DNA of 64,000 bases, taken from contig NZ_CP009512.1 in the NCBI RefSeq assembly GCF_000970205.1, forward strand, positions 3,038,001-3,102,000, in the 5' to 3' direction. Positions 2,968 to 22,189 of the stretch are shown one piece after another. Position 1 is the stretch's first letter, and each line of letters opens with the position of its first letter. The notes beneath the pieces were generated by a model. That model was not told the DNA's origin and ran no database searches. It saw nothing but the letters and a program-made list of their open reading frames with translations. The stretch comes from Methanosarcina mazei S-6 (GTDB taxonomy: Archaea > Halobacteriota > Methanosarcinia > Methanosarcinales > Methanosarcinaceae). Position numbers and translations under genes: made by a program.

Positions 2968-3765
2968 GTGCCCGGAAATCCTAATGAAATAAAACTGGTA
3001 AACAATGCTATGTCCAATGTTACCCGACGGAAGATAATGAACTTTTTATCGGCAGGAGACAAAAGTGCTGAAGAAATCGGGGGAGAAGTGGGAAAGACTA
3101 TGCTTGATTTCCATCTAAAACTCCTTCAACAGGCAAGCCTGATCGAGATTGAAGAAGGGACTGTGAGACTGAGCGAATATGGCAGGAATTTCCTTAAAGA
3201 GAAAGAGGAGAAAGGTGCAGATAAAACTGCAGATATTTCTCAGGCAAAACCAATAGAGATTACTGAGGTCAGACAGCTTTTGCCCTGTATAGCCGATTCC
3301 TCAAAGTTCAGGGTAATTGCAAATATAGCCCCTCATCTAGGTGGAACTCTCAAGGTTCTTGAACCACTCTTTCCCAGAGGCAAATATTCGGACAAAATAG
3401 GCGCTCTGATAATTCAAAAAGGAGAAATTATTACAACTGTTTACGGCACTGGAAAGGTGACCATGACAATGATAAAAAGTGAGGCGGAAGCCAGAGAATC
3501 TCTCCAGAGCCTTAAAAATACTATCAATGAAGCAATTGCAAAAGGTGTTGCTCCAGCACCAAGAGAAAAAGTCAGGGTTGAACCTATGGAGATCTACAAA
3601 TACCTGCCTCAGACCAACTGTGGCAAATGTGGTGAACAGAGCTGTTATACCTTTGCAATAAAGCTTATGGGAGGAGAGATCACTCTGGACAAATGCACAC
3701 CTCTAAAAGAACCGGGCTATGCAACAAACCTGGAGCATCTGCAAGTCCTTAGTGCATATATCTGA
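2968..3765 (+). CDS. Winged-helix protein with C-terminal 4Fe-4S domain (paralogue 1)
   Basis: This 265-aa protein is probably an iron-sulfur-dependent DNA-binding regulator. Residues 10-75 form an ArsR-like winged helix (TRRKIMNFLSAG, then LDFHLKLLQQASLIE as the recognition-helix region). Residues 95-195 are an unassigned alpha/beta domain. Residues 205-260 form the 4Fe-4S module found in the corrinoid Fe-S subunits CdhD/CdhE, with C218-x2-C221-x4-C226-x16-C243. The GTG start aligns with the ATG of the paralogue at 4078, giving equal lengths. It heads the sulfur-relay cluster and lies behind a shared operator. A redox- or Fe-S-sensing role is inferred; a non-regulatory electron-transfer role is possible. 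Confidence 0.75.
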   Translation: MPGNPNEIKLVNNAMSNVTRRKIMNFLSAGDKSAEEIGGEVGKTMLDFHLKLLQQASLIEIEEGTVRLSEYGRNFLKEKEEKGADKTADISQAKPIEITEVRQLLPCIADSSKFRVIANIAPHLGGTLKVLEPLFPRGKYSDKIGALIIQKGEIITTVYGTGKVTMTMIKSEAEARESLQSLKNTINEAIAKGVAPAPREKVRVEPMEIYKYLPQTNCGKCGEQSCYTFAIKLMGGEITLDKCTPLKEPGYATNLEHLQVLSAYI

Positions 3766-3791
3766 TTAGGTTTTATGAAATTCATCTGATT

Positions 3792-3943
3792 GGAGCACAT
3801 TAAAACACCTTGATTATAGTGCTCATTGATAGCTCTTTATCATACTCCAGATAGGTTAAATTCTCCTGCAAACTCGCTGAAGATGCTCTTAAACGATATT
3901 ATTGGAATAATTAGCATCCAGAAGTAAGAAAATATCCAAAAAA
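3792..3943 (+). pseudogene. Relic of a second dsrE-like gene
   Basis: DNA after the first winged-helix/Fe-S gene still aligns with the intact dsrE-like gene that follows the second copy. Shared words include ATAGTGCTCA at about 3817-3826 (intact copy 4925 onwards) and AAACTCGCTGAAGA at about 3870-3883 (intact copy 4976 onwards), in matching order and spacing, preceded in both by GGAG. The relic frame is broken by several stops and the similarity fades after about 3900. It shows that the regulator plus dsrE pair was duplicated as a unit and the first dsrE was then lost. Confidence 0.75.
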
Positions 3944-4077
3944 GTCATATATTTTCTTTTTTATTTTTCATAGAGATTTCTTCATCAGGTTGTGGAAAAT
4001 GAGTTGTGATCAGAGCCTGTAAGCAACGTGTACGCCTGAAAAAATTACCTGGCGGAAATAGCCTCCTGGTGTTAAAA

Positions 4078-4875
4078 ATGACGGAGAATCCGAACGAGAC
4101 AAAGCTAGTAAACTTTGCTATGGCCAACGGTACTCGAAGGAAGATAATTAACTTCCTGGCGGACGGTTATAGAAGTACCGGGGAAATAGGAGAGATAGTT
4201 GAGAAGGTAGCGCTTGACTTTCATCTCAAGATTCTCAAAGATGCGGGCCTTATCGAGCTAGAAGAAGAAACTGCAAAGTTAAGTGAGTACGGAAAGAATT
4301 TTCTGAAAGGTAAAAAAGAGACAAATCCTGAAGAAACCACTGATTTCTCCCAGTCAAAACCAATAGAGATTGCAAGTATCAGACAGGTTTTGCCCTGCAT
4401 AGCTGATGCCTCAAGACTCAGGATAAGTTCAAATATAACCCCACCACCTGGTAGAGTTTTGAAACTCCTTGAACCTCTCTTTCAAAGAAGTAGTTATTCA
4501 GATAGAAAAAATAGCTTGATAATTCAAAAAGGAGAAATCATCACAACTATTTACGGTAGTGGGAAAGTCTCCATCAGAATGGTCAAAAACGAAAACGAAG
4601 CTAAAGAAGAACTTGAAAGACTGAAGAGTATTATCAATGAGGCTATTGCAAAAGGCGAAGCCCCAGCTCCCAGAGAAAAGATAAAGGTTAATCTTATGGA
4701 GATATATAAACACCTGCCCCAAACCAACTGTGGCAGATGTGGCGAGCAGGGATGTTACAGCTTTGCCATCAAGCTTATGGCCAGACAGGCAGCTCTGGAA
4801 TTGTGTACACCCCTTAAAGAGCCGGAATACGCAAATAATCAGGAGCATCTTGAGGTTCTGGTTAATTACATCTAA
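4078..4875 (+). CDS. Winged-helix protein with C-terminal 4Fe-4S domain (paralogue 2)
   Basis: This is a 265-aa tandem paralogue of the 2968-3765 protein, with the same domain order: winged helix (TRRKIINFLADG, LDFHLKILKDAGLIE), middle domain, and the C-x2-C-x4-C-x16-C 4Fe-4S module (TNCGRCGEQGC, then the fourth Cys in LELC). The ATG at 4078 is preferred over an upstream in-frame GTG at 4006 because it aligns with paralogue 1 and no similarity extends upstream. The gene runs 34 bp ahead of the dsrE-like gene and probably shares its transcript. Keeping two copies suggests different DNA targets or heterodimers; that is inference. Confidence 0.75.
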   Translation: MTENPNETKLVNFAMANGTRRKIINFLADGYRSTGEIGEIVEKVALDFHLKILKDAGLIELEEETAKLSEYGKNFLKGKKETNPEETTDFSQSKPIEIASIRQVLPCIADASRLRISSNITPPPGRVLKLLEPLFQRSSYSDRKNSLIIQKGEIITTIYGSGKVSIRMVKNENEAKEELERLKSIINEAIAKGEAPAPREKIKVNLMEIYKHLPQTNCGRCGEQGCYSFAIKLMARQAALELCTPLKEPEYANNQEHLEVLVNYI

Positions 4876-4909
4876 ACTATTAATAAAATATATCTTGTTA
4901 GGAGGAAAT

Positions 4910-5293
4910 TTGAAGACACTTACTATAGTGCTCACCGATGGCCCTTATATTTCAGAATATGCTGAAATCGCCTCCAAACTCGCTGAAGAAGCACTTAAAC
5001 AAAATCAGGTGAACATATTCCTTTACCTGGATGCAGTGCATATCCCTAAAAAAAGCCAAAACCCTTCATTTTTTAATAATGTGAGTGAACTTTTCACCGG
5101 GCTGGCAGAGAAAGGAGCCATAATCAGAGCCTGTGCAAGGTGTGCTGCTGCACGCGGCTACCTGGCAGAAGAGGACAATACTCTGAAAGGAAGTAACTGT
5201 GAGGATTATCTCACCGGGATAAAAATTTCCAGTCTTTATGAACTCTCAGAAATGCTGAAAAAGAGTGACAGGGTAATCTCACTGTCAAGATAA
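4910..5293 (+). CDS. DsrE/TusD-like sulfur-relay protein
   Basis: This 127-aa DsrE-fold protein begins with the family's typical beta strand (LTIVLTDGPY). The conserved catalytic Cys region is present as RACARCAAARG, with C75 and C78; C78 sits at the position of the sulfur-carrying Cys of E. coli TusD. DsrE/TusD subunits carry persulfide sulfur within a DsrEFH/TusBCD complex. The start is TTG at 4910, chosen because a perfect AGGAGG lies at 4900-4905 and the reading then matches DsrE N-termini. DsrF-like and DsrH-like genes follow directly. Likely role: sulfur transfer, perhaps to tRNA or an Fe-S/thiol target. Confidence 0.8.
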   Translation: MKTLTIVLTDGPYISEYAEIASKLAEEALKQNQVNIFLYLDAVHIPKKSQNPSFFNNVSELFTGLAEKGAIIRACARCAAARGYLAEEDNTLKGSNCEDYLTGIKISSLYELSEMLKKSDRVISLSR

Positions 5294-5315
5294 ACCACCA
5301 AAAAGAGGTCTAATG

Positions 5316-5660
5316 ATGAAATCGGTTTTCTGTCTGCTGGATACTGCCCCATACGGAAATGAAAAAGCCTTTGGAGCATTGAATGCGGCTGCAGTAAGTC
5401 TTACGGAAGTGAGCGTTACTTTCGGCCTTTATGGAGATGGAGTTTATCTTGCAGCTGCTGACCAGGATAGCACAGAGCTTGGAGTTCCAAATCTTTCAGA
5501 CATTCTCTACTCATATGGAGAGTTAAGAGTAATTGTGCATGAACCCTCACTGATTGAAAGGGGACTTTTTGGTGAAACTCTGATAGAGACCATAGAACTT
5601 GTAGATGAAGAGGATTTTCTTGAAGAGATGGAAAACTCAGACTTCGTTATCTTATTTTAA
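5316..5660 (+). CDS. DsrF/TusC-like sulfur-relay protein
   Basis: This is a 114-aa member of the DsrE/F superfamily in the DsrF (TusC) position of the trio: KSVFCLLDTAPYGNEKAFGALNAA matches the family pattern of a beta strand followed by a helix with an Asn/Gly-rich turn, and FGLYGDGVYLAA is the second conserved strand. DsrF subunits are usually structural partners without an essential Cys. The second of two adjacent ATGs (5316) is preferred because the GAGGT at 5305-5309 is better spaced. It is 22 bp after dsrE and 15 bp before the DsrH-like gene, so the three are one operon. Confidence 0.75.
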   Translation: MKSVFCLLDTAPYGNEKAFGALNAAAVSLTEVSVTFGLYGDGVYLAAADQDSTELGVPNLSDILYSYGELRVIVHEPSLIERGLFGETLIETIELVDEEDFLEEMENSDFVILF

Positions 5661-5675
5661 GAAAGAGGTAATAGT

Positions 5676-5972
5676 GTGCAAGAAGAATATGATGTATTCC
5701 TGTTGACAAAGCCTCCTTTCAGTCCACGGGCAGAATTGTGCCTTAAACTGGCTGCTCGCTCCGGAAATGCAAGGCTTTACCTTGCAGGCGACGGAGTTTA
5801 TCATCTTCTTTGCGGCATACGAGAGCTTCCGGGATGTATGGTTTATGCCTGTCAGGAAGACCTCGAAGCAAGGGCTGTAAACGCCAGAGAGAAAGCTATG
5901 GTTCCTGAGAACTTTTACGCTGTTTTTATAGAGGATGTAATGGAACACTGTAAACATGCATATACATTTTAA
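5676..5972 (+). CDS. DsrH/TusB-like sulfur-relay protein
   Basis: This 98-aa protein has the short DsrH/TusB length. The pattern DVFLLTKPPFSPRAELCLKLA starts the fold and ARLYLAGDGVYHLLCG matches the 'LxxDGVY' strand shared by the DsrE superfamily. The GTG start at 5676 is preceded by GAGG. It completes a DsrE-DsrF-DsrH set, usually a hexameric sulfur-transfer complex. No dissimilatory sulfite reductase genes are nearby, so a biosynthetic or stress-related sulfur relay is more likely than sulfur respiration. Confidence 0.65.
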   Translation: MQEEYDVFLLTKPPFSPRAELCLKLAARSGNARLYLAGDGVYHLLCGIRELPGCMVYACQEDLEARAVNAREKAMVPENFYAVFIEDVMEHCKHAYTF

Positions 5973-6076
5973 ACGAAAGCCAGCAGACATGAAATAAGCG
6001 TCACTGGACAGGATGACTTTATATGACCGAAAAGCTCCCACCTGAGATTATTTAGGGATTAGAACAAGCGAGCAGG

Positions 6077-6310
6077 TTGCATGAGCAAGCAGTCTGCGAC
6101 CATGAAAAATGCAGAGAGTTTAGTGAAACTTTATCTAACCTTCTGGTCAGGCTCGAAGACATGAAATACTACAGGACAGCGGATAGGTTAATGAGCATTC
6201 TCATAAACTGCAGCCCGAAAGAAGCCTCTCACTGCGAAAAAGCTTCGCTTGTTGGAGAAATGATGAAAGAAGTGACAAAAGAACTGACAAAAAAGCACAA
6301 TTCAAGATAA
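6077..6310 (+). CDS. Small Cys-containing hypothetical protein
   Basis: This possible 77-aa protein opens at TTG 6077; an in-frame stop at 6053 excludes a longer start. It is charged, helical-looking and carries four Cys (VCDHEKC near the N-terminus, then INCSPKEASHCEK), suggestive of metal or thiol chemistry. It follows the DsrEFH trio on the same strand after about 100 bp and may belong to that transcript. I do not recognise a family. The start codon is weak, so the N-terminus is uncertain. Confidence 0.45.
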   Translation: MHEQAVCDHEKCREFSETLSNLLVRLEDMKYYRTADRLMSILINCSPKEASHCEKASLVGEMMKEVTKELTKKHNSR

Positions 6311-6946
6311 GTTATTATGATCTTTATATACTCAGTGTTATTAAATACTCGACACTCAGAACTTTAATAATGGGCGATCCCTTTTTAGCTCCAAAATTAT
6401 GTTTGAGAGGATATCATTGAAACTTTAAGGAATTAGAAATTTCATATTTCTGGAAAAGAAATGCTCTCTTGAAAAGAATACTCTCTTATTAACATTTCAG
6501 GTTGACAGCTCTCAGCTACTTAAATATGTTATTTAAAAATCCAGCACCTCTATAACATTCCGGACTTGTCATCTGTTTTTTACCCGGTTAAAAATGATTA
6601 ACAATCATCCCAAAAATATTACAACCGGTTACTTTTATATAGATTATTTCAAATATATTTGAAACAGCTATGGGATTCATACCTTTAAAGAACAGCATGA
6701 GGCACATTAGAGATTATGAAATACTTCTGTGCTTCAGATACTTTGATGCTGATTTTTAAATTCAGTTGTCTGAAGCCTGAACAAATGAATATCTCAGAAG
6801 ACTGTTCACGTCAGCGTTAAACTGAGTGTAATCGATTACAGGCGGTTCAAAATCGTATGATTTATGAGGATTGACGCAACATCAGATGTAAAACTTTGAT
6901 GTATGTAATAAGTGAATAAAATAGCAGTTTATGAGGTACAAAAAAC
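6311..6946. other. Noncoding spacer with an 18-bp palindrome
   Basis: No gene is seen in these 636 bp. A perfect palindrome tttcaaatatatttgaaa lies at 6647-6664; it keeps the TCAA-N6-TTGA core of the operator found elsewhere in the window but has TTTCAA half-sites, so it may be a divergent member. The rest is AT-rich without clear structure. Confidence 0.5.
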
Positions 6947-8543: not shown

Positions 8544-8864
8544 TCAAACATCATTAAATTCGATACTTAGGCTGCCTGCTTTTTTTGCCAGAGATCTGGC
8601 AAGAAATCCACATTCCAGTTTGCAAAGGTTGAGTACTGCGCAGGGCACAAGGCAATTTGAGCAGCACCTAGCTTCCTGTGCTTTATCAATCACGTAATTA
8701 TTCTTGATATCAAGAATTTCATTCACTGGGATTTCCATAAGAGAAAATTTCTTTATCTTTTCGCATGGGGTTTCGATGTCAACAACAATTTTACTTCCTT
8801 TTTTGCTTCCGCGGATTGTATGGACAAAATCACAGATAGTAGAATTTACGGTAATTTCAGTCAA
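8544..8864 (-). CDS. Cys-rich small protein (paralogue A)
   Basis: A 106-aa protein with nine cysteines, including CCSNCLVPCAVLNLC near the C-terminus and single Cys in STIC and ETPCEK. Its length equals that of paralogue B at 13337-13657 and every segment aligns. The start is TTG, as in the paralogue. It is divergent from the ASKHA ATPase at 9086 with the shared operator (8962-8981) between them. Such a Cys pattern suggests a bound metal, metalloid or Fe-S cluster; the function is not established. I do not recognise a characterised family. Confidence 0.7.
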   Translation of the reverse strand: MTEITVNSTICDFVHTIRGSKKGSKIVVDIETPCEKIKKFSLMEIPVNEILDIKNNYVIDKAQEARCCSNCLVPCAVLNLCKLECGFLARSLAKKAGSLSIEFNDV

Positions 8865-8961
8865 TGTATAACCTTCTACTTTTTAGTCTTGCAAGTTTTC
8901 TTTATCATCTTTTTAATTTAGAACTTAATGAGAGTGAATAGTAATCTCAAGTCTCTAGGAT

Positions 8962-8981
8962 ATATCAAATTTCGTTGATAT
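8962..8981. promoter_or_regulatory. ATATCAA-N6-TTGATAT operator between divergent genes
   Basis: A perfect inverted repeat (spacer ATTTCG) lies between the divergent Cys-rich gene (start 8864) and the hydantoinase-type gene (start 9086). A TATA-like CTTTATAAATTTAAAT lies at 8995-9010 for the rightward gene, so here the operator precedes the TATA/BRE region. It is identical in arms to the sites at 2817, 15031, 22096 and 22170. Confidence 0.7.
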
Positions 8982-9085
8982 CTAACTTTATGTGCTTTAT
9001 AAATTTAAATAAAATGGATAATTGTGAAAATAAAAGAATATCAATAATTTCCTTAAAAAAGTAGCAAAAAAGGAGTAGTTTCAAC

Positions 9086-11014
9086 ATGCAGTATAGCCTG
9101 GGGATTGATGCAGGAGGCACATACACAGATGCTGTGATTATAAGGGACTCGGATGGCATCATTGTCGATTCAAATAAGGCACTTACAACCTACCCGGATC
9201 TTCACCCTGGTATCAAAAACGTACTCGACAGCCTGAACCCTGATTACCTGAAAAACACAAAGCTGGTTTCGGTTTCCACAACTCTTTCTACCAATACAAT
9301 TCTAGAGGGCACTGGTTTTCCAGTAGCCGTGATCCTTATAGGAGATCATCCACTTGAACGAGAACTACCGACCGAATATGTACTTTATGTTACAGGTGGA
9401 CACGACCACAATGGGGAAGAAAAGGCTTCACTCAACCTGGAAGCTATTGAGAAATTCTCCCTTAATGTTAAGGGCAGGGTTTTAGCTTTTGCCATATCGT
9501 CATATTTTAGCACTAGAAACCCGGAACACGAACTGAAAGCAAAGGACCGAATCCTTGAGCTTACGGGGCTGCCTGTGGTTTGCGGGCATGAGCTTTCCCA
9601 GGAACTGGGAGCTTACGAAAGGGCAGTAACAGCTTTTCTTAATGCGCAGCTAATCCCCATAACAGGGCAGTTCGTACAGTCCATAATCACAGATATAAAA
9701 GAGCGGGGAATTAATGCCAGGCTCCTTATGCTAAAATGTGACGGTTCAGTTGTCGGAATCAAAGATGCCCTGAGAAAGCCAATAGAAACTATATTCTCAG
9801 GTCCGGCAGCAAGTCTTATTGGAGCTTCTTACCTCTCTGGACTTGAGACCTGTGCCGTAATTGATGTAGGAGGCACAAGTACGGACATCTCCTCGATCCA
9901 TATAGGCGTTCCTGATCTGAACAACGAGGGAGCTGTTGTAGGGGGCTGGAAAACCCGCGTTAGAGCGATAAGGATGGAAACAACGGCTACAGGCGGGGAC
10001 AGCCACATCTGGACAGTAAATAGGGAACTCTACCTTGGACCCAGGAGAGTTATACCGCTTGCAGTCGCTGCAGTAAAATACCCAAATTTTCTGAATAATC
10101 TCAAAAGGACTCCAATGCCTGCCAGAGAAAATCTGTGTGAGAACATTCAGCCCACAAAGTTTTTTGCCAGATCAGGATATATTGCAGGTGAGCTGAGTAA
10201 AGCCGAAGCCGAAGTACTGAAGGTAATAGGAGAAGAACCTGTTTCTGTGTTCGAAATATCAGCCCTTACAAGAAAAGACTTTCATCCTCAGACGCTTGAC
10301 TGTCTCATCAAAAAACGCCTTGTTCAGGTAATTGGCTTTACACCAACAGACGCTCTGCATGTGTTAGGGGAATACACAGCCTGGCGTGAAGAAGCTTCGC
10401 GTACAGGAGCAGAAAGGCTTGGAAGACTCATGCGCATGACACCAATAGAATTCTGTACTGCCGTAAAAAAGAAAGTTGCCAGAAATATGGCACTTCATCT
10501 TCTCTCGTATATCCTGACAGGTGTCCCATGCGAATCCATTGAGAAGATTTTGGACGTAGACTATCCCGCAAAATTCAAACTGCAACTTCCTGTTGTCCTG
10601 CTTGGAGGACCTGTTAGAGCGCATAGAAAGGAACTGGAAGAACTGATAGATGCAGATATCCTGGTTCCAGAACATGCCGAGGTAGGGAATGCAGTTGGAG
10701 CACTTGTAGGAAAAGGAATCAAAAGAGCTGAAATTCTCATAAGGCCAGAGAGCCTCATGTCTCCTGACAGGGATTTTCTTGTCTTTGCCCCGGGAAGCAG
10801 ACTGAAATTTGAGACTTACTCAAAAGCTTTGGAGAAAGCAACCGAGATTGGAAAAAAGCTTGTTGAAGATTATATGAAAGAATGTGGGCTCAGTGGCAAC
10901 CAGGTTGAAATCTCTAGTGAGAAAAAGACCGTTTCTCCTGACGGCTGGAACCATCCTCCTACGGAAACAAATCTGCTGGTTGTGGGAGTAGGTATGAGAG
11001 AATTGCACGTTTGA
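9086..11014 (+). CDS. Hydantoinase/oxoprolinase-family ASKHA ATPase
   Basis: A 642-aa protein of the hydantoinase A family. The N-terminus shows the actin-like phosphate loop LGIDAGGTYTDAVI (residues 4-17) and a second ATPase signature, CAVIDVGGTSTDISSI, near residue 260. The family performs ATP-dependent hydrolysis of hydantoins or 5-oxoproline, but no HyuB partner is present here, so the substrate is open. The ATG at 9086 follows GGAG. Upstream are a shared ArsR-type operator and a divergent Cys-rich gene. ASKHA ATPases also include corrinoid-protein reductive activators, and a solitary MtrA lies 1.8 kb downstream; a link is only a hypothesis. Confidence 0.8.
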   Translation: MQYSLGIDAGGTYTDAVIIRDSDGIIVDSNKALTTYPDLHPGIKNVLDSLNPDYLKNTKLVSVSTTLSTNTILEGTGFPVAVILIGDHPLERELPTEYVLYVTGGHDHNGEEKASLNLEAIEKFSLNVKGRVLAFAISSYFSTRNPEHELKAKDRILELTGLPVVCGHELSQELGAYERAVTAFLNAQLIPITGQFVQSIITDIKERGINARLLMLKCDGSVVGIKDALRKPIETIFSGPAASLIGASYLSGLETCAVIDVGGTSTDISSIHIGVPDLNNEGAVVGGWKTRVRAIRMETTATGGDSHIWTVNRELYLGPRRVIPLAVAAVKYPNFLNNLKRTPMPARENLCENIQPTKFFARSGYIAGELSKAEAEVLKVIGEEPVSVFEISALTRKDFHPQTLDCLIKKRLVQVIGFTPTDALHVLGEYTAWREEASRTGAERLGRLMRMTPIEFCTAVKKKVARNMALHLLSYILTGVPCESIEKILDVDYPAKFKLQLPVVLLGGPVRAHRKELEELIDADILVPEHAEVGNAVGALVGKGIKRAEILIRPESLMSPDRDFLVFAPGSRLKFETYSKALEKATEIGKKLVEDYMKECGLSGNQVEISSEKKTVSPDGWNHPPTETNLLVVGVGMRELHV

Positions 11015-11156
11015 GCAACTGACTCAGAATCGAATCATGAAAGCTGGCAAGGGTTTTTAAAAAACAATTAATAAGTTTGTCTTATCAGGCTATACCCAGG
11101 ATCCACGTTTAAGACTTTCTCAATGTGGAGTTTGTATTTTAAAGTAAGGGATAAAA

Positions 11157-12557
11157 ATGGATGAAAAATATTTGAGGTATGTAAGGCAAAACAAAAAAAA
11201 GATAGGAGCATCCATTGTAATTCTTGTTTTCCTGATTGCAATGGGAATTTTCATTCTTTATGCCATAAAATCCGAATATTCTCCTATACCTTTAAATAAA
11301 AAGGTATATGTTACAGGCGATAGAAGTGGAGATTTCAACTGTGACGGAGAGGCTGACCAGGTAGAGATAAACCAGGCTCTTAAATTCGTAGCAGAAACAC
11401 CAGGATATAATACTGTTTATCTTAAAGGTCCCTTTACCTATACTATCAACAGTACCATTTACATGCAAAGCAACACGATTCTTGAGGGAGACCCTGATGC
11501 TGTTATCAAACTGGTTGATCATGCAGGGTGGACCAATTCTCCCATGATCCCCCTGATTGGGAAATATGGAGACTCAGAAATAACCGATGTAATTATTCGT
11601 GGGTTTGAAATCGATGGCAATCATGATAACAACACTGATCGTTCTAAAGGTAGAGGCTACTATAATATAATTTATTTCACCAGTGCGAAAAACATAAAAG
11701 TTTATAATATGTATATGCATGACGGCCACGGTGACGGATTAAGGATTAACCACGGTAAAAATATTCAGTTTTATAATAACAAAATATATAAGCTTGGACA
11801 TGATGGGCTTTATGCTATTGAGTGCACAAACGTAAAAGCCTGGAATAATACGATAACCTGCAGAACTAACAGTGGCCTCAGAGTCTGGAATTCGAATCAT
11901 GTGAAGTTCTATGATAACATTATTAATTCCACATTTGACAGGAACGCAGGCGGCCCTGGAATCCTGATTGAAAAAACTACCGGAGTTATGAATGATATAG
12001 AAATCTACAATAATTCTATTCACAACACCTTCGGACCCGGATTATGGTTGATAGGATACGACTCTTCTTATCCCAAAAAAGAGGCGCAGAATATCCATAT
12101 TCATCGAAATACATTTTATAGTACGGGTACTAATCCGAGTATAAACTGGGTCGGTGGCATCGTAACAAGTGGCTTTTACGATACTCTTATAGAGAACAAT
12201 ATATTCGATGGTGTGTACCACGCTGCAGTAATCCATATGTACCCGGATGGTAAAGTCACGGACCTTTCACCTGCAGGTACGGGACACACAACAACCGTCC
12301 GCAACAATATTATAGTGAATACCCAGAAACGCACAGAGAATCCAGATGGGACCGGATATGCAGTAATCAATTATCTCCCTGAAACACATAGTTTTGTGCT
12401 GGAAAATAACTGCCTTTACAATAATTCTGCGGGTAACTATAAAAACGCGAGTTCAACAACTGACTTCTATGCAGATCCTCTCTTTGTAGACCAGAAGAAA
12501 CATAATTATCACCTGAAATCAAATTCTCCCTGCATAAAGGCAGGTAACTCTTCTTAA
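11157..12557 (+). CDS. Membrane-anchored right-handed beta-helix protein
   Basis: A 466-aa protein with a short cytoplasmic N-terminus, one transmembrane or uncleaved signal segment (residues 16-38, ASIVILVFLIAMGIFILYAI), and an extracellular beta-helix. Repeated short strands with Asn ladders are visible (NIKVYNMYMHDGHGDGL, NIQFYNNKIYKLGHDGL, VKFYDNIINS). An Asp-rich motif (GDFNCDGEADQVEINQAL) at residues 60-77 is typical of archaeal secreted beta-helix proteins. Likely a cell-surface polysaccharide-binding or -cleaving protein; no catalytic set is certain. Confidence 0.75.
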   Translation: MDEKYLRYVRQNKKKIGASIVILVFLIAMGIFILYAIKSEYSPIPLNKKVYVTGDRSGDFNCDGEADQVEINQALKFVAETPGYNTVYLKGPFTYTINSTIYMQSNTILEGDPDAVIKLVDHAGWTNSPMIPLIGKYGDSEITDVIIRGFEIDGNHDNNTDRSKGRGYYNIIYFTSAKNIKVYNMYMHDGHGDGLRINHGKNIQFYNNKIYKLGHDGLYAIECTNVKAWNNTITCRTNSGLRVWNSNHVKFYDNIINSTFDRNAGGPGILIEKTTGVMNDIEIYNNSIHNTFGPGLWLIGYDSSYPKKEAQNIHIHRNTFYSTGTNPSINWVGGIVTSGFYDTLIENNIFDGVYHAAVIHMYPDGKVTDLSPAGTGHTTTVRNNIIVNTQKRTENPDGTGYAVINYLPETHSFVLENNCLYNNSAGNYKNASSTTDFYADPLFVDQKKHNYHLKSNSPCIKAGNSS

Positions 12558-12772
12558 ATTTTTAAAAAAATTGGAAAAAAATGTCCAAATCAACAAGGAA
12601 AAATCAATAGGAATATGGTTAAAAGTGTAGGCTCATACAGAACTCAGCTTCCTAAAGTCAAATCGAAATTAATATCATAATTAACAGCTCATTAAAAATG
12701 AAATGCAAGTTATCAAAAAGTGAACTAAAAAACCGTTTAACATGAAGAACTACTCGGAAAAGGAGCTTTTAC

Positions 12773-13321
12773 ATGGGATGGCCTGTAATTTCCGGCGATT
12801 ATATAGTAGGAGATCCAAAATCTCCTGTGGCAGTAGTAACCCTCGCTTCTGACTATCAAAGCCTGAACCTGAAAAACTACGCCATCTGTGGAACCTGTTT
12901 TACGGAAAATTTTGGAATTGAGAAGGTAATAGTTAATGTGCTTTCGAATCCCCGCATCAGCTGCCTGGTTGTCTGCGGACAGGAAAGCGACCATTTTGCC
13001 GGGCAGTCCCTGCTGGCACTTGCCGAAAATGGGGTTTCTGCTTTCGGAGGGTCAAAAAGGATTATCGGGTCAGAAGGAGTGATCCCTTATCTTGACGACA
13101 TCCCGGCAACCGCAATATCCCGCTTCCTCAGGGAAATTGAAGTTATTGACCTTGTCGGGACAACCGACCCTGCAGTCATCCAGCAGGCAATCGATTCCTG
13201 CAGCGGAAAAGAAAGAGGCGAAGCCCCGGAACTTTCTATGCCCGAAATTAATGAACATAGCTGGAAGAAATACGAACCTGAGGTAAAGAAGAATATAATG
13301 TCCAAAATTAAAAAAGGATAA
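12773..13321 (+). CDS. Solitary MtrA-like corrinoid protein without membrane anchor
   Basis: This 182-aa protein is homologous to subunit A of N5-methyl-tetrahydromethanopterin:coenzyme M methyltransferase (GWPVISGDYIVGDPKSPVAVVTL at the start; IIGSEGVIPYLDDI). His74 in DHFAGQ aligns with the His that ligates cobalt in canonical MtrA (pattern H-x2-GQ). The C-terminal transmembrane helix of Mtr-complex MtrA is absent, and no other mtr genes are near, so it is a soluble paralogue. The ATG follows AAGGAG. It probably carries a corrinoid in another methyl transfer; the partners are unknown. It converges on the Cys-rich paralogue B. Confidence 0.85.
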   Translation: MGWPVISGDYIVGDPKSPVAVVTLASDYQSLNLKNYAICGTCFTENFGIEKVIVNVLSNPRISCLVVCGQESDHFAGQSLLALAENGVSAFGGSKRIIGSEGVIPYLDDIPATAISRFLREIEVIDLVGTTDPAVIQQAIDSCSGKERGEAPELSMPEINEHSWKKYEPEVKKNIMSKIKKG

Positions 13322-13336
13322 AATTCGCCTCTTTGT

Positions 13337-13657
13337 TTAAACTTCATTAAACTCTATACTGATACTGCCTGCTTTTTTTACCAGGGATTTTGCAAGGAAA
13401 CCGCTTTCCATTCTGCATAGATTGAGCACTGCACATGGTACAAGGCAATTAGAGGAGCACTGCGCTTCCTGTGCTCTATCAATGACATAATTGTTCTTGA
13501 TATCGAGAATTTCCATCATGGGGACTTCCATGTGAGAGAATTTTTTTATCTTCTCACAGGGGGTTTCAATATCAACAATAATTTTGTTTCCTTTTTTGCT
13601 TCCATGTATCTTGTGTACAAAACCACAGATCGTAGAATTTACAGTAAATTCAGACAA
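13337..13657 (-). CDS. Cys-rich small protein (paralogue B)
   Basis: A 106-aa paralogue of the 8544-8864 protein, with conserved STICGFVH, IETPCEKIKKFSHMEVP, DIKNNYVID and SSNCLVPCAVLNLC. The start TTG at 13657 is chosen because GGTGG precedes it and it gives exactly the length of paralogue A; an upstream in-frame ATG at 13681 lacks support. It is the third gene of the permease - mini-thioredoxin - Cys-rich operon (32 bp after the thioredoxin stop). The operon context supports a role in thiol or metalloid handling. Confidence 0.7.
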   Translation of the reverse strand: MSEFTVNSTICGFVHKIHGSKKGNKIIVDIETPCEKIKKFSHMEVPMMEILDIKNNYVIDRAQEAQCSSNCLVPCAVLNLCRMESGFLAKSLVKKAGSISIEFNEV

Positions 13658-13689
13658 TGTGCCACCTTTGATATCAGTCAATTAAGTTC

Positions 13690-13920
13690 TTAGATTATCC
13701 ATTTTCGAACATCTTTTTCATCCGGGACTTTACCTGCAAGTTTTACTTCACCATCAATAACAACTGCAGGAGTGACCATAACGCCGTAGCTCATAATTTT
13801 TTCAATATCCTCAACTTTAATTACTTCAGCTTCAACTCCAGTTTGCTTCAATACTTTTTCAATCGTTTCTTTTGTTTTTTTGCATTTGGGGCATCCTGTT
13901 CCGAGAATTTCTATTTTCAT
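13690..13920 (-). CDS. Small redox-active disulfide protein (mini-thioredoxin)
   Basis: A 76-aa thioredoxin/glutaredoxin-fold protein with the active site CPKC (C10, C13) directly after the first strand (KIEILGTGCPKCKK) and the cis-Pro segment VTPAVVIDGEV. It matches the small 'redox-active disulfide' family common next to permeases in archaea and bacteria. It is encoded between the TPFCSCS permease and the Cys-rich protein on one transcript. It may reduce or load the permease substrate; inferred. Confidence 0.85.
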   Translation of the reverse strand: MKIEILGTGCPKCKKTKETIEKVLKQTGVEAEVIKVEDIEKIMSYGVMVTPAVVIDGEVKLAGKVPDEKDVRKWII

Positions 13921-14004: not shown

Positions 14005-14976
14005 TTACAACAACACATTGAACAAATAACCTGTAAAAATTATCGATAATGCTACAATTGAAACAAATATCGCAATCAATTCTTTTTTCAGTACTTTTCT
14101 AAGAATAATCATCTCAGGCAGAGACACTGCTGTAACAGACATAAGAAAAGCAAGGGCAGTCCCTACAGGCAGTCCTTTTCCAATCAAGCTCTCTACAATA
14201 GGGATCATAGCCATGATATTCGAATAAAGGGGCACCCCAATAAGGACCGCAACTGGCACTGCAAGTAGATTGTCCTTACCAGCGTATTTTTCGAGTATTC
14301 CTTCGGGCGCATATCCATGGAAAATACCTCCGATAGCGACTCCTATTATTACATAGAGCCATACTCTGCCCACAATTTCTTTTACACTTTCAAAGGCATA
14401 TTCTGCTCTTTCCTTCATTATTAGTTTTTGATCTTCCACACTGTGCTTTCCTACTTTCATCTTGTAAACAAAGCCTTCGACATATTTTTCGAGTTTAAGA
14501 AGGCCAATTAGATATCCCCCCAACACGCCCAGTATGACTCCTGAAACAATATAGATTACCGTAGCCTTAAGGCCGAGAGTTGCCCATAGAGCGGCTACAG
14601 CAGCTTCGTTTACAAGAGGAGAGGTGATCAGAAAAGCGAAAGTAACTCCCAGAGGCACTCCAGCTTCAACAAATCCTATGAAGATCGGGACAGACGAACA
14701 AGAACAAAAAGGAGTTACTGTTCCGATGAGAGATGCAAGAAAATAATATCTGATTCCTTTCTTACTTCCAAGAACCTGCCTTGTTCTTTCGGGAGTAATG
14801 TATGTCCTTATATAGGAAACAACAAAAATCATTACAGCTAAAAGGACGAAAATTTTCATTACATCATAAATAACAAAATTAACACTGGATGCAAGGCGTG
14901 TATCAGATGCAATCCCTAAGATCTCATATGTCAGTTTGTCAGCAATCCATTGAAGAGGATAAAATATATCGACCAT
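14005..14976 (-). CDS. Permease of the ArsP/SO_0444-like (COG0701) family
   Basis: A 323-aa integral membrane protein with about eight hydrophobic helices. The signature TPFCSCSSVPIFIGF (residues 88-102, C91 and C93) is characteristic of permeases that export trivalent organoarsenicals or metals. A second half-repeat carries GVPLYSNIMAMIPIVESL. It is the first gene of the operon with the mini-thioredoxin and Cys-rich protein, and an ArsR-type operator sits at the expected start of transcription. The substrate (arsenical, metal or thiol adduct) is not fixed by sequence. Confidence 0.85.
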   Translation of the reverse strand: MVDIFYPLQWIADKLTYEILGIASDTRLASSVNFVIYDVMKIFVLLAVMIFVVSYIRTYITPERTRQVLGSKKGIRYYFLASLIGTVTPFCSCSSVPIFIGFVEAGVPLGVTFAFLITSPLVNEAAVAALWATLGLKATVIYIVSGVILGVLGGYLIGLLKLEKYVEGFVYKMKVGKHSVEDQKLIMKERAEYAFESVKEIVGRVWLYVIIGVAIGGIFHGYAPEGILEKYAGKDNLLAVPVAVLIGVPLYSNIMAMIPIVESLIGKGLPVGTALAFLMSVTAVSLPEMIILRKVLKKELIAIFVSIVALSIIFTGYLFNVLL

Positions 14977-15027: not shown

Positions 15028-15070
15028 AATATATCAATATATATTGATATATTGTGTGCTATATAAATAT
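15028..15070 (-). promoter_or_regulatory. Operator/promoter of the permease-thioredoxin operon
   Basis: A 26-bp perfect palindrome at 15028-15053 contains ATATCAA-TATATA-TTGATAT (15031-15050). On the minus strand a TATA box (TATTTATATAG, about 15059-15069) lies about 25 bp upstream of it, so the operator covers the predicted start site. The permease ATG is at 14976. Confidence 0.75.
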
Positions 15071-15911: not shown

Positions 15912-16223
15912 TTACTCTTCAAGGACTTCCAGGATTTTCCTGATTTTTTCGTTTTGTATGGAATATAATCTCTTTTTGCCTTCTTTTCTTACTTTAATTA
16001 TCCCCCAGTCCTGTAGTTTTGCAAGGTGCATTGAGGTATTGGATTGAGTCTTACCAATAATTTCTGGAATTTCACATGCGCATATTTCACCTTTATTACC
16101 GTGTTTATTTTCCCCACATTTGCACTCAGATTCAATTAGAGCCTTGATGATTCTATACCTTGTATCTTCGCTAAGAGCCTTGAAAATTTGTAAGTTTTTT
16201 TCATTAATCATATCAAGATACAT
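15912..16223 (-). CDS. arsR: ArsR/SmtB-family transcriptional regulator (double CxC)
   Basis: A 103-aa winged-helix repressor: LSEDTRYRIIKALI is the first helix pair, and SNTSMHLAKLQDWGIIKVRKEGKKRLYSI gives the recognition helix and wing. It carries two CxC pairs, C34/C36 and C48/C50 (EICACE); the latter is in the usual ArsR metalloid-sensing position. An alternative start at Met5 is possible. A partial operator (ATATCAA, then TTGA at the same spacing) overlaps its start at 16210-16229, suggesting autoregulation. Confidence 0.85.
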   Translation of the reverse strand: MYLDMINEKNLQIFKALSEDTRYRIIKALIESECKCGENKHGNKGEICACEIPEIIGKTQSNTSMHLAKLQDWGIIKVRKEGKKRLYSIQNEKIRKILEVLEE

Positions 16224-16503: not shown

Positions 16504-16523
16504 ATATCAACAATTCATGATAT
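16504..16523 (+). promoter_or_regulatory. Operator upstream of the CCCC protein gene
   Basis: ATATCAA-CAATTC-ATGATAT differs from the consensus at one base. A TATA-like TTTATATC at 16480-16487 lies about 25 bp upstream, again putting the operator at the expected start site. The ATG of the downstream gene is at 16556. The rest of the 332-bp spacer (16224-16555) holds nothing else recognisable. Confidence 0.6.
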
Positions 16524-16555: not shown

Positions 16556-16861
16556 ATGGGCAAACTTGGAAAAAATTTGCTTGGAAAATTGGTTGGAAGC
16601 GACAAAAGTTGCTGTTGCTGCGGCCCTTCTATCGTAAGTGTAAAAAAAATAAAAGTTGACAACAAAGATATGGAAATTGCCGGATTAGATGAAGAATTCG
16701 AAAAATATTTTTCTGCAGGCAAGACACCTGAAAATATAGATATAGAAGAACTTATCCGAACCCTTACAAAAATAAATGAAATACCCGAAGAAGGACTGGA
16801 TAAGTTAAAAGTCGCAGTACTTGAGGAGTACGAGACATACTGGCAGGGGAAAAGAAAATAA
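16556..16861 (+). CDS. Small protein with four consecutive cysteines
   Basis: A 101-aa protein beginning with a basic helix and then SDKSCCCCGPSIVSVKKIKV (four Cys at residues 19-22), followed by an acidic helical domain (DEEFEKYFSAGKTPENIDIEELIRTL). The family is not known to me, but such CCCC/CCG motifs occur in small proteins of archaeal arsenic loci. It is the first gene of a short run with a Zn-ribbon remnant and an arsR, behind an ArsR-type operator. Probably a metalloid- or metal-binding carrier. Confidence 0.65.
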   Translation: MGKLGKNLLGKLVGSDKSCCCCGPSIVSVKKIKVDNKDMEIAGLDEEFEKYFSAGKTPENIDIEELIRTLTKINEIPEEGLDKLKVAVLEEYETYWQGKRK

Positions 16862-16922: not shown

Positions 16923-17090
16923 ATGGAAATGAATCCCGTATGCTCAATTTGTGGAAAAGAGGAAGATTCGTTACTCAGAGCCAATCACAGGGACTTAGGA
17001 AATATAAAGATGTGTGTGAAGTGCTGATCAAAAGAACAGTGTAAAAACATGCTACTTCCTATAGGAAGTGGAGGCAGCTGCTGCAGGTAA
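16923..17090 (+). pseudogene. Small Zn-ribbon protein gene interrupted by in-frame UGA
   Basis: From ATG 16923 the frame encodes 34 residues (VCSICGKEEDSLL, then IKMCVKC) and meets TGA at 17025-17027. The same frame then stays open for 20 more codons (SKEQCKN, ending GSGGSCCR) to TAA at 17088-17090, right before the arsR start. The joined product would be a 55-residue protein with CxxC...CxxC and a C-terminal Cys pair. In such mini Zn-ribbons the residue after the last CxxC is often Trp, so TGG to TGA is the simplest explanation. Methanosarcina is not known to use selenocysteine. Confidence 0.6.
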
Positions 17091-17094
17091 ATTC

Positions 17095-17508
17095 ATGAAA
17101 GCTGAAAGAAAATCAGATGTGAACAAAAGAAAGCGTGAAGTGGAAATTGGAAGATTGGAACGTTTTATTTTTGACAGAGATCAGTTAGAGGTAAGAACGC
17201 AAAAGCTCAGTTCTCTGGTAAATGGGCTGGATGAAGAAGCACTATACTCAGAAGCCAGGATTTTTAAAGCCCTTGCAGATCCCAATCGCCTCAAAATTGT
17301 AAAACTATTAAAAGAAGGAGAACTCTGTGCCTGCGAATTAACTATTGCTCTTTCCAGTTCCCAATCGACTGTTTCTCACCATCTTTCGGTATTGAAGAGT
17401 GCGGGCCTGGTCAAAGAACGGAAAGAAGGAAAATGGTCTTACTTTCGTCTCTCGGAAGGAGCAGTTATTGAAATACTTAACCAGGCAAAACTGCTTCATG
17501 AAAGATGA
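17095..17508 (+). CDS. arsR: ArsR-family transcriptional regulator
   Basis: A 137-aa regulator with a basic N-terminal extension and a classic ArsR domain: IFKALADPNRLKIVKLL, GELCACELTIALSSSQSTVSHHLSVL and the wing KERKEGKWSYFRL. C78 and C80 form the CxC metalloid site. The start ATG at 17095 follows AGGT; a GTG at 17068 lies inside the Zn-ribbon frame and is less likely. It stands upstream of the second permease (17685). Confidence 0.88.
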   Translation: MKAERKSDVNKRKREVEIGRLERFIFDRDQLEVRTQKLSSLVNGLDEEALYSEARIFKALADPNRLKIVKLLKEGELCACELTIALSSSQSTVSHHLSVLKSAGLVKERKEGKWSYFRLSEGAVIEILNQAKLLHER

Positions 17509-17684: not shown

Positions 17685-18584
17685 ATGTTCTGGGATAATT
17701 TAACTGTGGCGGCTAAGTTCTTTATTGAGATCTCCGTTGAGCTAACTATTTTATTTATAGGTATAACTTTTCTAGTGGGGCTGAGTCAGGAGTATGTGCC
17801 GGACGAGACCATAAAAAGAGCCCTTGGTGGGCGGAATAAAGTTATAGGCAGTATCCTTGGGGCAGGATTTGGTGCAATTACCCCTTTCTGCTCCTGTTCA
17901 ACCATACCGCTTCTCCTGGGAATGCTTAAGGCTGGTGCACCTTTTGCTGCAGCAATGGCATTCCTATTCTCGTCGCCTTTACTAAACCCGGTGATAATAT
18001 CTCTGTTTGTCATTCTGCTGGGCTGGAAGGTAACTGCTCTTTATTTTGTCGTCGTTTTTATGTCTACAATTGCTATAGGTCTCTTACTTGACTGGTTAGG
18101 CTTTTCCAATCAGATTAAGCCAGTTGCTGTTGTAAGAAACCGTTGTGATTGTGAGCAGGACACAAATGCGAAGTCCAGAATACAGCGGTCTGCAGTATTC
18201 GCGTTTAGCCTTTTCCGTCAGCTTATGCCTTATCTCCTCTTGGGAGCAGGAATTGGGGCATTTATTCACGGATTTGTACCAACAGAAGTTATCACCCGCG
18301 TTGCCGGACCGAGCAATCCTCTAGCGGTTCCTGTTGCTGCAATTATTGGTGTCCCCATCTATATCCGGGCTGAGACTATGATTCCTATAGGACTGGCACT
18401 CATCGAAAAGGGAATGAGTGTGGGAGCTGTTCTGGCACTGATAATAGGCGGTGCAGGAGCCAGCATACCCGAGCTGACACTTCTGTCATCAATATTCAAG
18501 AAGAGACTACTTACAGCCTTCATGATAACGGTTTTTTCAATAGCTGTGATTGCAGGATATCTTGCAAATCTGCTGACACTGTGA
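17685..18584 (+). CDS. Permease of the ArsP/SO_0444-like (COG0701) family
   Basis: A 299-aa membrane protein with two half-repeats. The signature TPFCSCSTIPLLLGM is at residues 66-80 (C69, C71) and the second half has GVPIYIRAETMIPIGLALIEKG. It also carries a Cys pair (RCDCEQ) in the central loop. It is a likely efflux permease for organoarsenicals or metals, paired by position with the arsR at 17095. It is only distantly similar to the permease at 14005, so the two are probably not recent duplicates. Confidence 0.85.
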   Translation: MFWDNLTVAAKFFIEISVELTILFIGITFLVGLSQEYVPDETIKRALGGRNKVIGSILGAGFGAITPFCSCSTIPLLLGMLKAGAPFAAAMAFLFSSPLLNPVIISLFVILLGWKVTALYFVVVFMSTIAIGLLLDWLGFSNQIKPVAVVRNRCDCEQDTNAKSRIQRSAVFAFSLFRQLMPYLLLGAGIGAFIHGFVPTEVITRVAGPSNPLAVPVAAIIGVPIYIRAETMIPIGLALIEKGMSVGAVLALIIGGAGASIPELTLLSSIFKKRLLTAFMITVFSIAVIAGYLANLLTL

Positions 18585-18632: not shown

Positions 18633-18665
18633 CTGGATCATTTCTCAAATATCCGGATGATCCAG
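18633..18665. terminator. Hairpin between convergent permease and arsC genes
   Basis: CTGGATCAT (18633-18641) and ATGATCCAG (18657-18665) form a 9-bp stem, followed on the plus strand by a T-rich run (TCTTTT). It lies at the junction of convergent genes, overlapping the 3' end of the arsC remnant, and fits a transcription terminator for the permease gene. Confidence 0.45.
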
Positions 18666-19101
18666 TCTTTTATCTCATCTCTGATCTGGCGGAAGATCTT
18701 AAGCTTCTCTTCTTCTGATCCCAAAGTTGCAGCGGGATCCTCAAAACTTTTCTGAATCACCTCTCTTGCTCTTGGGTATTCGGCTGGAACCTCCAGGTTT
18801 GTACTGCAGATAGGACAGGAAACTTTAGCCCGATCACATACTGTGACTGCCATGTCAAAAATGACATCCTGGAATTCTTTATGAGTTTTGGAGTATTGAC
18901 TGGAGATGTCAATGCCAATTTCCTTCATAACTCGAACAGCATACGGATTAACATTTGTGGCCATAATACCGGCGCTGTAAGCCTCGTATCGACTTCCATA
19001 AATATTCCTCAAAAGACCTTCAGCCATCCGGGATCTGGCTGAGTTGTGGGTGCGTAAAAAAAGAACTTTCTTTTTTCTTTTGATCCCGTATTTGGTACCA
19101 T
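18638..19101 (-). pseudogene. arsC: Arsenate reductase (LMW phosphatase type), inactivated
   Basis: The body is a thioredoxin-coupled ArsC of low-molecular-weight phosphatase type (MAEGLLRNIYG, AYSAGI, VTVCDRAKVSCPICS, then the FEDPAA loop). Two lesions are visible. Upstream of Met19027 the frame reads VLFLRTHNSARSR, where the catalytic P-loop Cys should be (VLFLC): TGC has become CGC. No start codon precedes it in that frame; the only good ATG (19101) is in the +1 frame, giving MVPNTGSKEK, so a single-base indel in the A-rich tract separates them. Starting at Met19027 would remove the P-loop entirely. Confidence 0.75.
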
Positions 19102-19293: not shown

Positions 19294-20040
19294 TTACACC
19301 CGGGCTTTTAATTTCAGGCTTTCGACTGGCAAATCTCTGTATTGCCTTTTACTGATATCTAAATCTTCATTCAGGATTTCAACCGAAAACCCTGCCTTTT
19401 TCAGAAGCCCCAAATATTCCTCTTTTAAAACGGCACCAGCAATACAACCCGCAAGCAGCTCACTGTCATTTTTAAGTTCTTCAGGCAGCTCATCAAGGAG
19501 AACCATGTCCGAAATATACATTCTGCCTTCCGGTTTCAGAACACGGAACGCCTCTCTGAAAACTTTTTCCTTATCAGGAGCCAGGTTAATAACACAGTTA
19601 CTGATAATAACATCCACAGAACTATCTTTAACCGGAAGAGACTCAATATCCCCATGGCGGAATTCTACATTTGAGTAGCCATATTTTCGGGCATTAGCCT
19701 GCGCTTTTTCAACCATTTCAAGAGTCATATCGACCCCGATAACTTTTCCTGAGCTTCCTATTTTCTGTGCAGCAAGAAAACAATCAAAACCCCCGCCAGA
19801 ACCCAGATCCAGAACGACATCTCCGGGTTTCAGTTCTGCAAAAGCGGTAGGATTGCCGCAGCCAAGACCCATATTCGCATCCGGAACAGCCTGAACGTCA
19901 GATTCGGAATAACCAAGTGACCTGGAAAGGTCTGTTGAGTTAGAATCACCGCAGCATCCGCCAGAACAGCAGGAGCCCCCTAAAATTGCAATTTCCTGAT
20001 ACTTCTTTTTGATAACTTCCTTTTTTTCATTCGCATCCAT
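19294..20040 (-). CDS. arsM: Arsenite S-adenosylmethionine methyltransferase
   Basis: A 248-aa ArsM. SAM-binding motif I is [11 protein letters not shown] (77-87), with MTLEMVEKA and [11 protein letters not shown] following. Cys61, Cys149 and Cys199 occupy the three conserved As(III)-binding positions ([24 protein letters not shown]). An N-terminal CCSGGCC (24-30) adds four more Cys and is common in archaeal ArsM. The protein methylates As(III) to volatile or exportable species. It is followed on the operator side by the arsR at 20095. Confidence 0.92.
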
Positions 20041-20094: not shown

Positions 20095-20502
20095 TCAGTT
20101 ATTTTTAACTTTGTTTTCAACCCGGTTTTCAGTACTCCCATTAATAGTGTTGTTGATTCGGTATTCGGTTTTACATACAGGACATACCTCTGAAACAGAG
20201 CATACTCCTGAAGCCTGCTGCCCATCACAACAGGGTTTTATATCCCGGATTCCAAGAGATAATAGCAAACAGCTGATCTCTTCGTTTTTAATGCTGTAAA
20301 TTACGTTTCTTCCCTGCTTTTCGTACTTTAAAATTCCAGCTTCAACTAGGACTTTCAAATGTTTTGAAACCGTTGTCTGGTCCTTTTTTGTAAGGGAAGA
20401 AAAGTCACAGGCACAGTAGCTGTGTTCCAGCAAGTAAGAGAGGATGGTAAGCCGTGTTTCATCTCCGAGAGCTTTAAAGAATTTCACTTTACTATCAAGC
20501 AT
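20095..20502 (-). CDS. arsR: ArsR-family transcriptional regulator with Cys-rich tail
   Basis: A 135-aa repressor: FFKALGDETRLTILSYLL, then CxC at C30/C32 (HSYCACDFSSLTKKDQTTVSKHLKVL is the sensing and recognition region). The C-terminus has more Cys (IKPCCDG, VCSVSEVCPVCKTEY). The start is placed at Met 20502 rather than 20532, because a 30-bp palindrome (20506-20535) that looks like its operator overlaps the longer form. It lies just upstream of arsM on the same strand and likely controls it. Confidence 0.87.
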   Translation of the reverse strand: MLDSKVKFFKALGDETRLTILSYLLEHSYCACDFSSLTKKDQTTVSKHLKVLVEAGILKYEKQGRNVIYSIKNEEISCLLLSLGIRDIKPCCDGQQASGVCSVSEVCPVCKTEYRINNTINGSTENRVENKVKNN

Positions 20503-20505
20503 AAT

Positions 20506-20535
20506 TATATGGATATATGCACATATATCCATATA
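20506..20535. promoter_or_regulatory. 14-2-14 palindromic operator of arsR-arsM
   Basis: TATATGGATATATG (20506-20519), a CA spacer, then its exact complement CATATATCCATATA (20522-20535). It abuts the arsR ATG (20502). Its half-site differs from the ATATCAA/TTGATAT family, so this arsR probably has its own DNA specificity. Confidence 0.65.
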
Positions 20536-22095: not shown

Positions 22096-22115
22096 ATATC
22101 AAAATATATTGATAT
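22096..22115. promoter_or_regulatory. ATATCAA-N6-TTGATAT operator (distal arsR site)
   Basis: A perfect site with spacer AATATA, lying between the divergent thioredoxin-ccdA operon and the arsR at 22227. Together with the site 74 bp further on, it gives this intergenic region two perfect operators. Confidence 0.7.
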
Positions 22116-22147: not shown

Positions 22148-22189
22148 CTTATAAATAATAATAAGTTTAATATCAAACAAAATTGATAT
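22148..22189 (+). promoter_or_regulatory. arsR promoter and proximal operator
   Basis: A TATA-like CTTATAAATAAT (about 22148-22159) is followed about 25 bp later by a perfect operator, ATATCAA-ACAAAA-TTGATAT at 22170-22189, covering the predicted transcription start of the arsR at 22227. This argues for autorepression. Confidence 0.72.

Follow-up and report, generated by a model that had tools for sequence, protein, structure and literature searches.

We analysed a stretch of 64,000 nt from Methanosarcina mazei S-6 (NZ_CP009512.1, 3,038,001-3,102,000; hereafter the window, whose coordinates are used throughout), which belongs to a genome of 4.14 Mb in a single contig. Six consecutive genes occupy positions 2968-6310 on its + strand: regA (2968-3765, GTG start) and regB (4078-4875), which encode two paralogous proteins of 265 amino acids, the dsrE/tusD-like (4910-5293), dsrF/tusC-like (5313-5660) and dsrH/tusB-like (5676-5972) genes of a sulfur-carrier trio, and a gene for a small Cys-containing protein of ~95 amino acids (6023-6310). 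All reading frames of the operon are intact, and third codon positions hold most of the changes relative to one close relative in all five genes compared, which indicates purifying selection on these genes. Together with a gene order kept in ~30 loci, this means that the composition of the operon is not due to chance.

RegA and RegB are 64% identical over 262 residues and share one domain order, with a winged helix at the N terminus, an iron-sulfur (FeS) domain at the C terminus and a middle domain between them. The FeS domain matched PF04060 in both proteins (47.9 and 46.8 bits vs a gathering score of 23; E ~1e-12), and its cysteines C218, C221, C226 and C243 have exactly the spacing C-x2-C-x4-C-x16-C and are invariant among 27 relatives. 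An initial annotation, made from the sequence alone, had described two paralogues combining a winged helix with this Cys module, and this description held. It had also likened the module to CdhD and CdhE; CdhE, the gamma subunit, was indeed the closest named relative of the FeS domain, but none of the matches was to CdhD. As in the N-terminal FeS domain of CdhE (the large, gamma subunit of the corrinoid Fe-S protein), the cysteines stand in a 'YkyLPxtnCgxCGe' surround; RegA and RegB differ from CdhE in having no corrinoid/TIM-barrel part and in carrying the FeS domain behind a winged helix and a second domain. The FeS domain probably binds a [4Fe-4S] cluster. The winged helix scored over the HTH_5 cut-off in RegB (8.6e-7) and was weak in RegA, and the solved structure nearest to it is 1y0u, a putative arsenical-resistance repressor. 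Neither protein has a Cys before C107, and the classical CxC-type arsenite site of ArsR proteins is therefore missing from both. C107 itself, within the middle domain, is an additional invariant Cys in the motif 'LLPCIAD' and is kept in 27/27 relatives. A profile of these relatives matched the middle domain to archaeal TATA-binding protein (TBP; 2z8u) with an E value of 1.6e-6 over 37 residues only, and the Pfam TBP model remained below its cut-off. An AlphaFold model of RegB built from four sequences had a mean pLDDT (predicted local distance difference test score) of 46; the winged helix alone was usable, and the middle domain was not modelled reliably.

Known roles of DsrEFH/TusBCD-type trios are in tRNA thiolation and sulfur oxidation, where DsrC/TusE is the acceptor. 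The DsrE-DsrF-DsrH trio that had been read behind the paralogues was recovered by Pfam as PF02635 (DsrE/TusD-like, 4e-19), PF02635 and PF04077 in this order, and the best solved matches were chains A, B and C of Allochromatium vinosum DsrEFH (2hy5), the DsrH match being weak. The TusB equivalog TIGR03011 was exceeded (51.3 vs a cut-off of 49.2), and TusD (42.9 vs 89.25) and TusC (35.9 vs 94.15) were both below their curated cut-offs. The first Cys of the DsrE motif 'ACARC', C75, aligns with Cys78 of the solved DsrE, the sulfur-carrying residue in A. vinosum (PMC3397948), consistent with the proposal that DsrE retains the carrier Cys of TusD. C75 and C78 of M. mazei DsrE are retained in all ten aligned DsrE relatives, and C22 of DsrH in all nine of its relatives. 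Thus, the trio resembles DsrEFH of A. vinosum and TusBCD of Escherichia coli in having its three genes side by side and identically ordered, with an equivalent of DsrE Cys78 and a Cys in the region of DsrH Cys20. It differs from them in that only TusB/DsrH reaches a full-length model, in that the genome has neither a DsrC/TusE acceptor nor a dsrAB context, and in its linkage to arsenic genes and a winged-helix/FeS protein. DsrC/TusE (PF04358) was absent from all seven trio-bearing genomes tested, in a search whose controls found it in E. coli and in a genome that we take to be Archaeoglobus-like (G205), and TusA was absent from three genomes of a second module-bearing family of the class, which is presumably Methanothrix-like. 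The classical partners of the trio are therefore unavailable in these genomes.

Methanosarcina and related genera keep the order reg-dsrE-dsrF-dsrH, which recurs in the Methanothrix-like family; the module was found once in another family, in one genome and with a shortened reg (G375, L109). Of 393 genomes, 33 had both reg and a DsrE of this type, 3 and 2 had only one of the two, and 355 had neither; genomes carrying only a winged-helix-less form of reg were counted as reg-negative. Fisher's test on this co-occurrence gave 4e-42, a value that the relatedness of the genomes makes too optimistic. The neighbourhood search across archaea thus revealed conservation well outside M. mazei S-6, in line with the dedicated system suggested initially. 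Most genomes of the phylum have no such trio. Winged-helix-less homologues of 170-185 amino acids (~178) occur in Archaeoglobus-like and other lineages, with no trio nearby; at three loci (L110, L113, L114) they lie beside genes for TauE/SafE-type exporters (Pfam match shown for L110), another link to sulfur. In a phylogenetic tree, the regs of some Methanosarcinaceae genera (L064-L068) grouped with the Methanothrix-like regs (100/97), which suggests that the module or the island may have been passed on by horizontal transfer.

The genes around reg are those of arsenic resistance. ArsR genes were present in 31/52 loci around reg, and ArsP, ACR3 or ArsM in 35/52 compared to 0/40 control loci, which were sampled at two fixed relative positions in the same and in similar genomes; the gene set of this comparison was partly picked from the same loci, and the test was rerun with the curated models PF03773 and TIGR00832. 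ACR3 (TIGR00832 over cut-off) then lay within 16 kb of reg in 20/22 genomes, with 0.3 expected, and ArsP_1 (PF03773) within 16 kb in 11/16, with 0.4 expected. Of the 12 Methanothrix-like genomes, 10 have ACR3 immediately upstream of reg and on its strand, with 57-121 bp between match ends, and in the remaining two it is ~3 kb away. At one locus (L104), arsR, a rhodanese gene, ACR3, reg, dsrE, dsrF and dsrH follow each other in one direction. Furthermore, the winged-helix-less protein closes a run of ACR3, ArsP and thioredoxin genes at an Archaeoglobus-like locus (L116), and in G205 its gene is divergent from an adjoining ArsP_1 gene. The arsenic link is strong, and we firmly conclude that the operon is a module of an arsenic island and not a free-standing sulfur operon. 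The initial annotation was incomplete in this respect: it recognised neither the arsenic-island context nor the TBP-like middle domain with C107, nor a decayed dsrE copy described below. A link to acetate metabolism, considered on account of the CdhE-like domain and the occurrence in Methanosarcina and Methanothrix-like genomes, was rejected; more is accounted for by the linkage to arsenic genes and by the occurrence of homologues without a winged helix in other lineages.

The operon also shares a regulatory site with the island. A block upstream of regA that is conserved within the otherwise diverged spacers of related operons is the perfect palindrome ATATCAA-N6-TTGATAT (2817-2836, 131 bp before regA), and most of 31 related loci have this operator upstream of reg with at most two mismatches. 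The whole genome holds five perfect copies, all inside the island of this window. The other four are located between a DUF6951 gene (8544-8864, - strand) and a hydantoinase-like gene (9086-11014, + strand) at 8962-8981, 55 bp before ArsP_1 at 15031-15050, and before ArsR4 and a thioredoxin-like gene at 22096-22115 and 22170-22189, the latter 37 bp before ArsR4; a copy with one mismatch (16504-16523) precedes 16556-16861 and ArsR1. The perfect sites of other Methanosarcina genomes are no more than ~18 kb away from the reg operons and precede genes such as reg, ArsP, ArsR4 and ArsR1. Of the statement that the trio lies behind a shared thiol/metalloid operator, the sharing was confirmed, but the site precedes regA, and the trio stands behind it as part of the operon (34 bp separate regB from dsrE). 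Because the reg promoter bears this island-wide ArsR-type operator, the operon should switch on with the ArsP, ArsR and thioredoxin genes. Another candidate for the shared operator was the exact palindrome TTCAAATATATTTGAA (6648); the window contains a single exact copy, which lies behind the trio, and the candidate was given up in favour of ATATCAA-N6-TTGATAT. A related palindrome, TTTCAA-N6-TTGAAA, lies behind the trio at 6646-6665 and, at two loci (L050, L062), stands before reg where the usual operator would be; it may represent a sister operator type. Just past the window (G000:C1:3104346-3104509), a 16-bp tandem array of ATATGAAATTGAATTG yields ten operator near-matches by repetition.

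Thiols and clusters are targets of arsenite and antimonite. The reading we favour, to which we give an even chance, is that the operon serves as an arsenical/thiol-stress module, with DsrEFH as the carrier of sulfane sulfur and the FeS proteins as its sensors or receivers. The operon would then be an accessory module of the archaeal arsenic (metalloid/thiol-stress) island. Metalloid or thiol stress would derepress the island, DsrEFH would transport sulfane sulfur as persulfide on DsrE, and the 265-amino-acid proteins would be sensors or receivers of sulfur or cluster state; the condition of their Cys/FeS module, whether damaged, repaired or persulfidated via DsrEFH, would tune the island. From the sequences we infer that arsenic would induce the operon and that the 265-amino-acid proteins would hold an actual cluster, bind DNA and accept sulfur from the trio. 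A more specific version is that the relay ends on a DNA-binding Fe-S protein, with the persulfide passed to C107 or to the cluster of the 265-amino-acid proteins and thereby setting the arsenic regulon. We put this version forward tentatively and consider it unlikely on balance. The initial annotation had suggested either that Fe-S status would control persulfide delivery or that a DNA-binding protein would receive sulfur; the second is made somewhat more plausible by the absence of DsrC/TusE. If it were true, a sulfur carrier would write the signal that sets the arsenic regulon.

Several observations weigh against a stress module built from trio and FeS protein together. The genomes compared are related, which inflates all counts. 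The trio is missing from some genomes that retain reg (G008, G030, G075), and in Archaeoglobus-like genomes the FeS part is found with neither winged helix nor trio; the trio and the FeS protein are therefore not strictly interdependent. The ACR3 gene of M. mazei S-6 itself is elsewhere in the genome and not in this island, and the operator ATATCAA-N6-TTGATAT is lacking in Methanothrix-like loci. ArsR4 and ArsR1, with their classical CxC sites, are moreover strong and equally good candidates for reading the operator. Two Methanosarcina genomes without reg had neither the operator nor ArsR4, and since reg and ArsR4 are missing jointly, the absence of the operator does not tell which protein reads it.

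The main rival, to which we assign a small but real chance, makes DsrEFH itself the detoxifying step: the trio would pass sulfane sulfur to arsenite or methylated arsenicals, the resulting thioarsenicals would leave via ACR3 or ArsP, and the 265-amino-acid proteins would only regulate. The direct joining of the trio module to ACR3 fits this explanation, as does the rhodanese gene in the same gene run at L104 and L102, and the lack of a DsrC/TusE acceptor would make a small-molecule acceptor possible. In addition, DsrE/F-like genes of Thioalkalivibrio are arsenite-responsive (their role is not known there), and thioarsenates have been discussed (PMC6620896). However, no DsrEFH is known to pass sulfur to a small molecule, the known acceptor being a protein Cys (PMC3397948), thioarsenical chemistry leaves the FeS partner unexplained, and reg occurs with ACR3 but without the trio in G008.

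Another explanation, rather improbable in our estimate, is that the 265-amino-acid proteins are Fe-S/sulfur-handling proteins of arsenic operons and not regulators, with a winged helix that one lineage acquired for tethering to protein or DNA. Consistent with this, the 170-185-amino-acid homologues without a winged helix still reside in ACR3/ArsP/thioredoxin operons, and the winged helix is weak in RegA and devoid of ArsR-type cysteines. Yet the winged helix is retained in all full-length members of two families, its recognition-helix region is well conserved, and RegB passes the HTH_5 cut-off. Finally, it is very improbable that the trio serves TusBCD-type tRNA thiolation or general sulfur supply and is linked to arsenic genes merely because they share a mobile genomic island: its relationship to DsrEFH/TusDCB is clear and the mixed grouping of regs in the tree suggests island transfer, but DsrC/TusE is missing from every trio-bearing genome tested and TusA from the three Methanothrix-like ones, most genomes of the phylum do without the trio, ACR3 is within ~3 kb of reg in 12/12 Methanothrix-like genomes, and the ars operator is shared in Methanosarcina.

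The proposed stress module shares features with known systems. Like ArsR/SmtB repressors, RegA and RegB have an HTH_5-type winged helix and belong to an ars island with a shared palindromic operator, but they comprise 265 instead of ~110 amino acids, have no CxC arsenite site and carry extra TBP-like and FeS domains. Archaeal ars operons (ACR3, ArsP, ArsM, thioredoxin) have the same neighbours and operator and form one transcription unit with the module in Methanothrix-like genomes; the sulfane-sulfur carrier trio and the TBP-like/FeS protein are additions to them. The SAO/TSO selenoprotein-organometal systems (Haft and co-workers; PMC13188914) likewise include an ArsP-like permease, a thioredoxin-like protein and a DsrE-family part, to which matches were weak; all of these were below cut-offs, no selenoproteins or ABC transporter were seen, and the M. 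mazei operon has a three-subunit DsrEFH in place of one DsrE. We found no description of this module or of this combination in the literature searched, a search outside which many subscription papers lie. The joining of the trio to ACR3 and a winged-helix/TBP-like/FeS protein, in archaea that lack the acceptor, points to another use of DsrEFH, in metalloid stress, and the linkage suggests a dedicated sulfur relay in these archaea against arsenic-like poisons. Methanogens participate in arsenic cycling in anoxic soils, which gives the function of the module environmental weight.

The regA/regB pair appears to have arisen together with a copy of dsrE. Between the two genes, a decayed dsrE copy (3772-4031, + strand) is 72% identical to dsrE over 125 nt (E 6e-14). 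Its repeat spacing, 1.1 kb, is the same as that of the paralogues, and dsrE fragments lie at the equivalent place in three relatives (L011, L046, L048). This indicates that a reg-dsrE unit was duplicated in tandem and that one dsrE then decayed. The regB copies form one well-supported group in the tree (100/99), and the duplication is therefore old. The regB copy is broken in one genome (G088, L054), and the reg of another (G062, L059) carries a TAA; in the latter genome, ArsR4 is missing as well and the operator is altered.

Within the window, the island goes on from 13.7 to 23 kb and there comprises two ArsP_1 genes, four ArsR genes, ArsM and thioredoxins. On the - strand are a thioredoxin-like gene of the MTH895/ArsE family (13690-13920, TIGR00412 over cut-off), an ArsP_1 permease (14005-14976, PF03773), the CxC-type ArsR1 (15912-16223, PF01022), an arsenate-reductase-like gene of the low molecular weight phosphatase type (18638-19027, TIGR02691 at 2e-25, below cut-off), the arsenite methyltransferase ArsM (19294-20040, NF008823 over cut-off) and ArsR3 (20095-20532, PF01022). 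The + strand encodes ArsR2 (17068-17508, PF01022), the second ArsP_1 permease (17685-18584, PF03773) and the candidate operator reader ArsR4 (22227-22568, NF033788 over cut-off), which has a CVC motif and whose orthologues are 79-93% identical in most operator-bearing genomes. The stretch 8544-13681 of the same island holds genes for a hydantoinase/oxoprolinase-like protein, a soluble MtrA-like protein and two DUF6951 proteins, with one operator copy between these genes; at other loci, too, reg has MtrA-like and DUF6951 genes nearby.

Orthologues of the small Cys-containing protein are found behind dsrH in most Methanosarcinaceae loci. Codon 11 of the M. mazei gene is an in-frame TAG (6053-6055), at which most relatives have a Lys; it may be read as pyrrolysine in Methanosarcina, or translation may begin later, at TTG 6077. 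Rfam found no RNA elements in the first 20 kb of the window. Between a ribosomal protein gene and regA, a 24-bp unit, CTTTAGTTAGATCTCAGTTTTTTA, is repeated in tandem in about nine copies (2403-2620).

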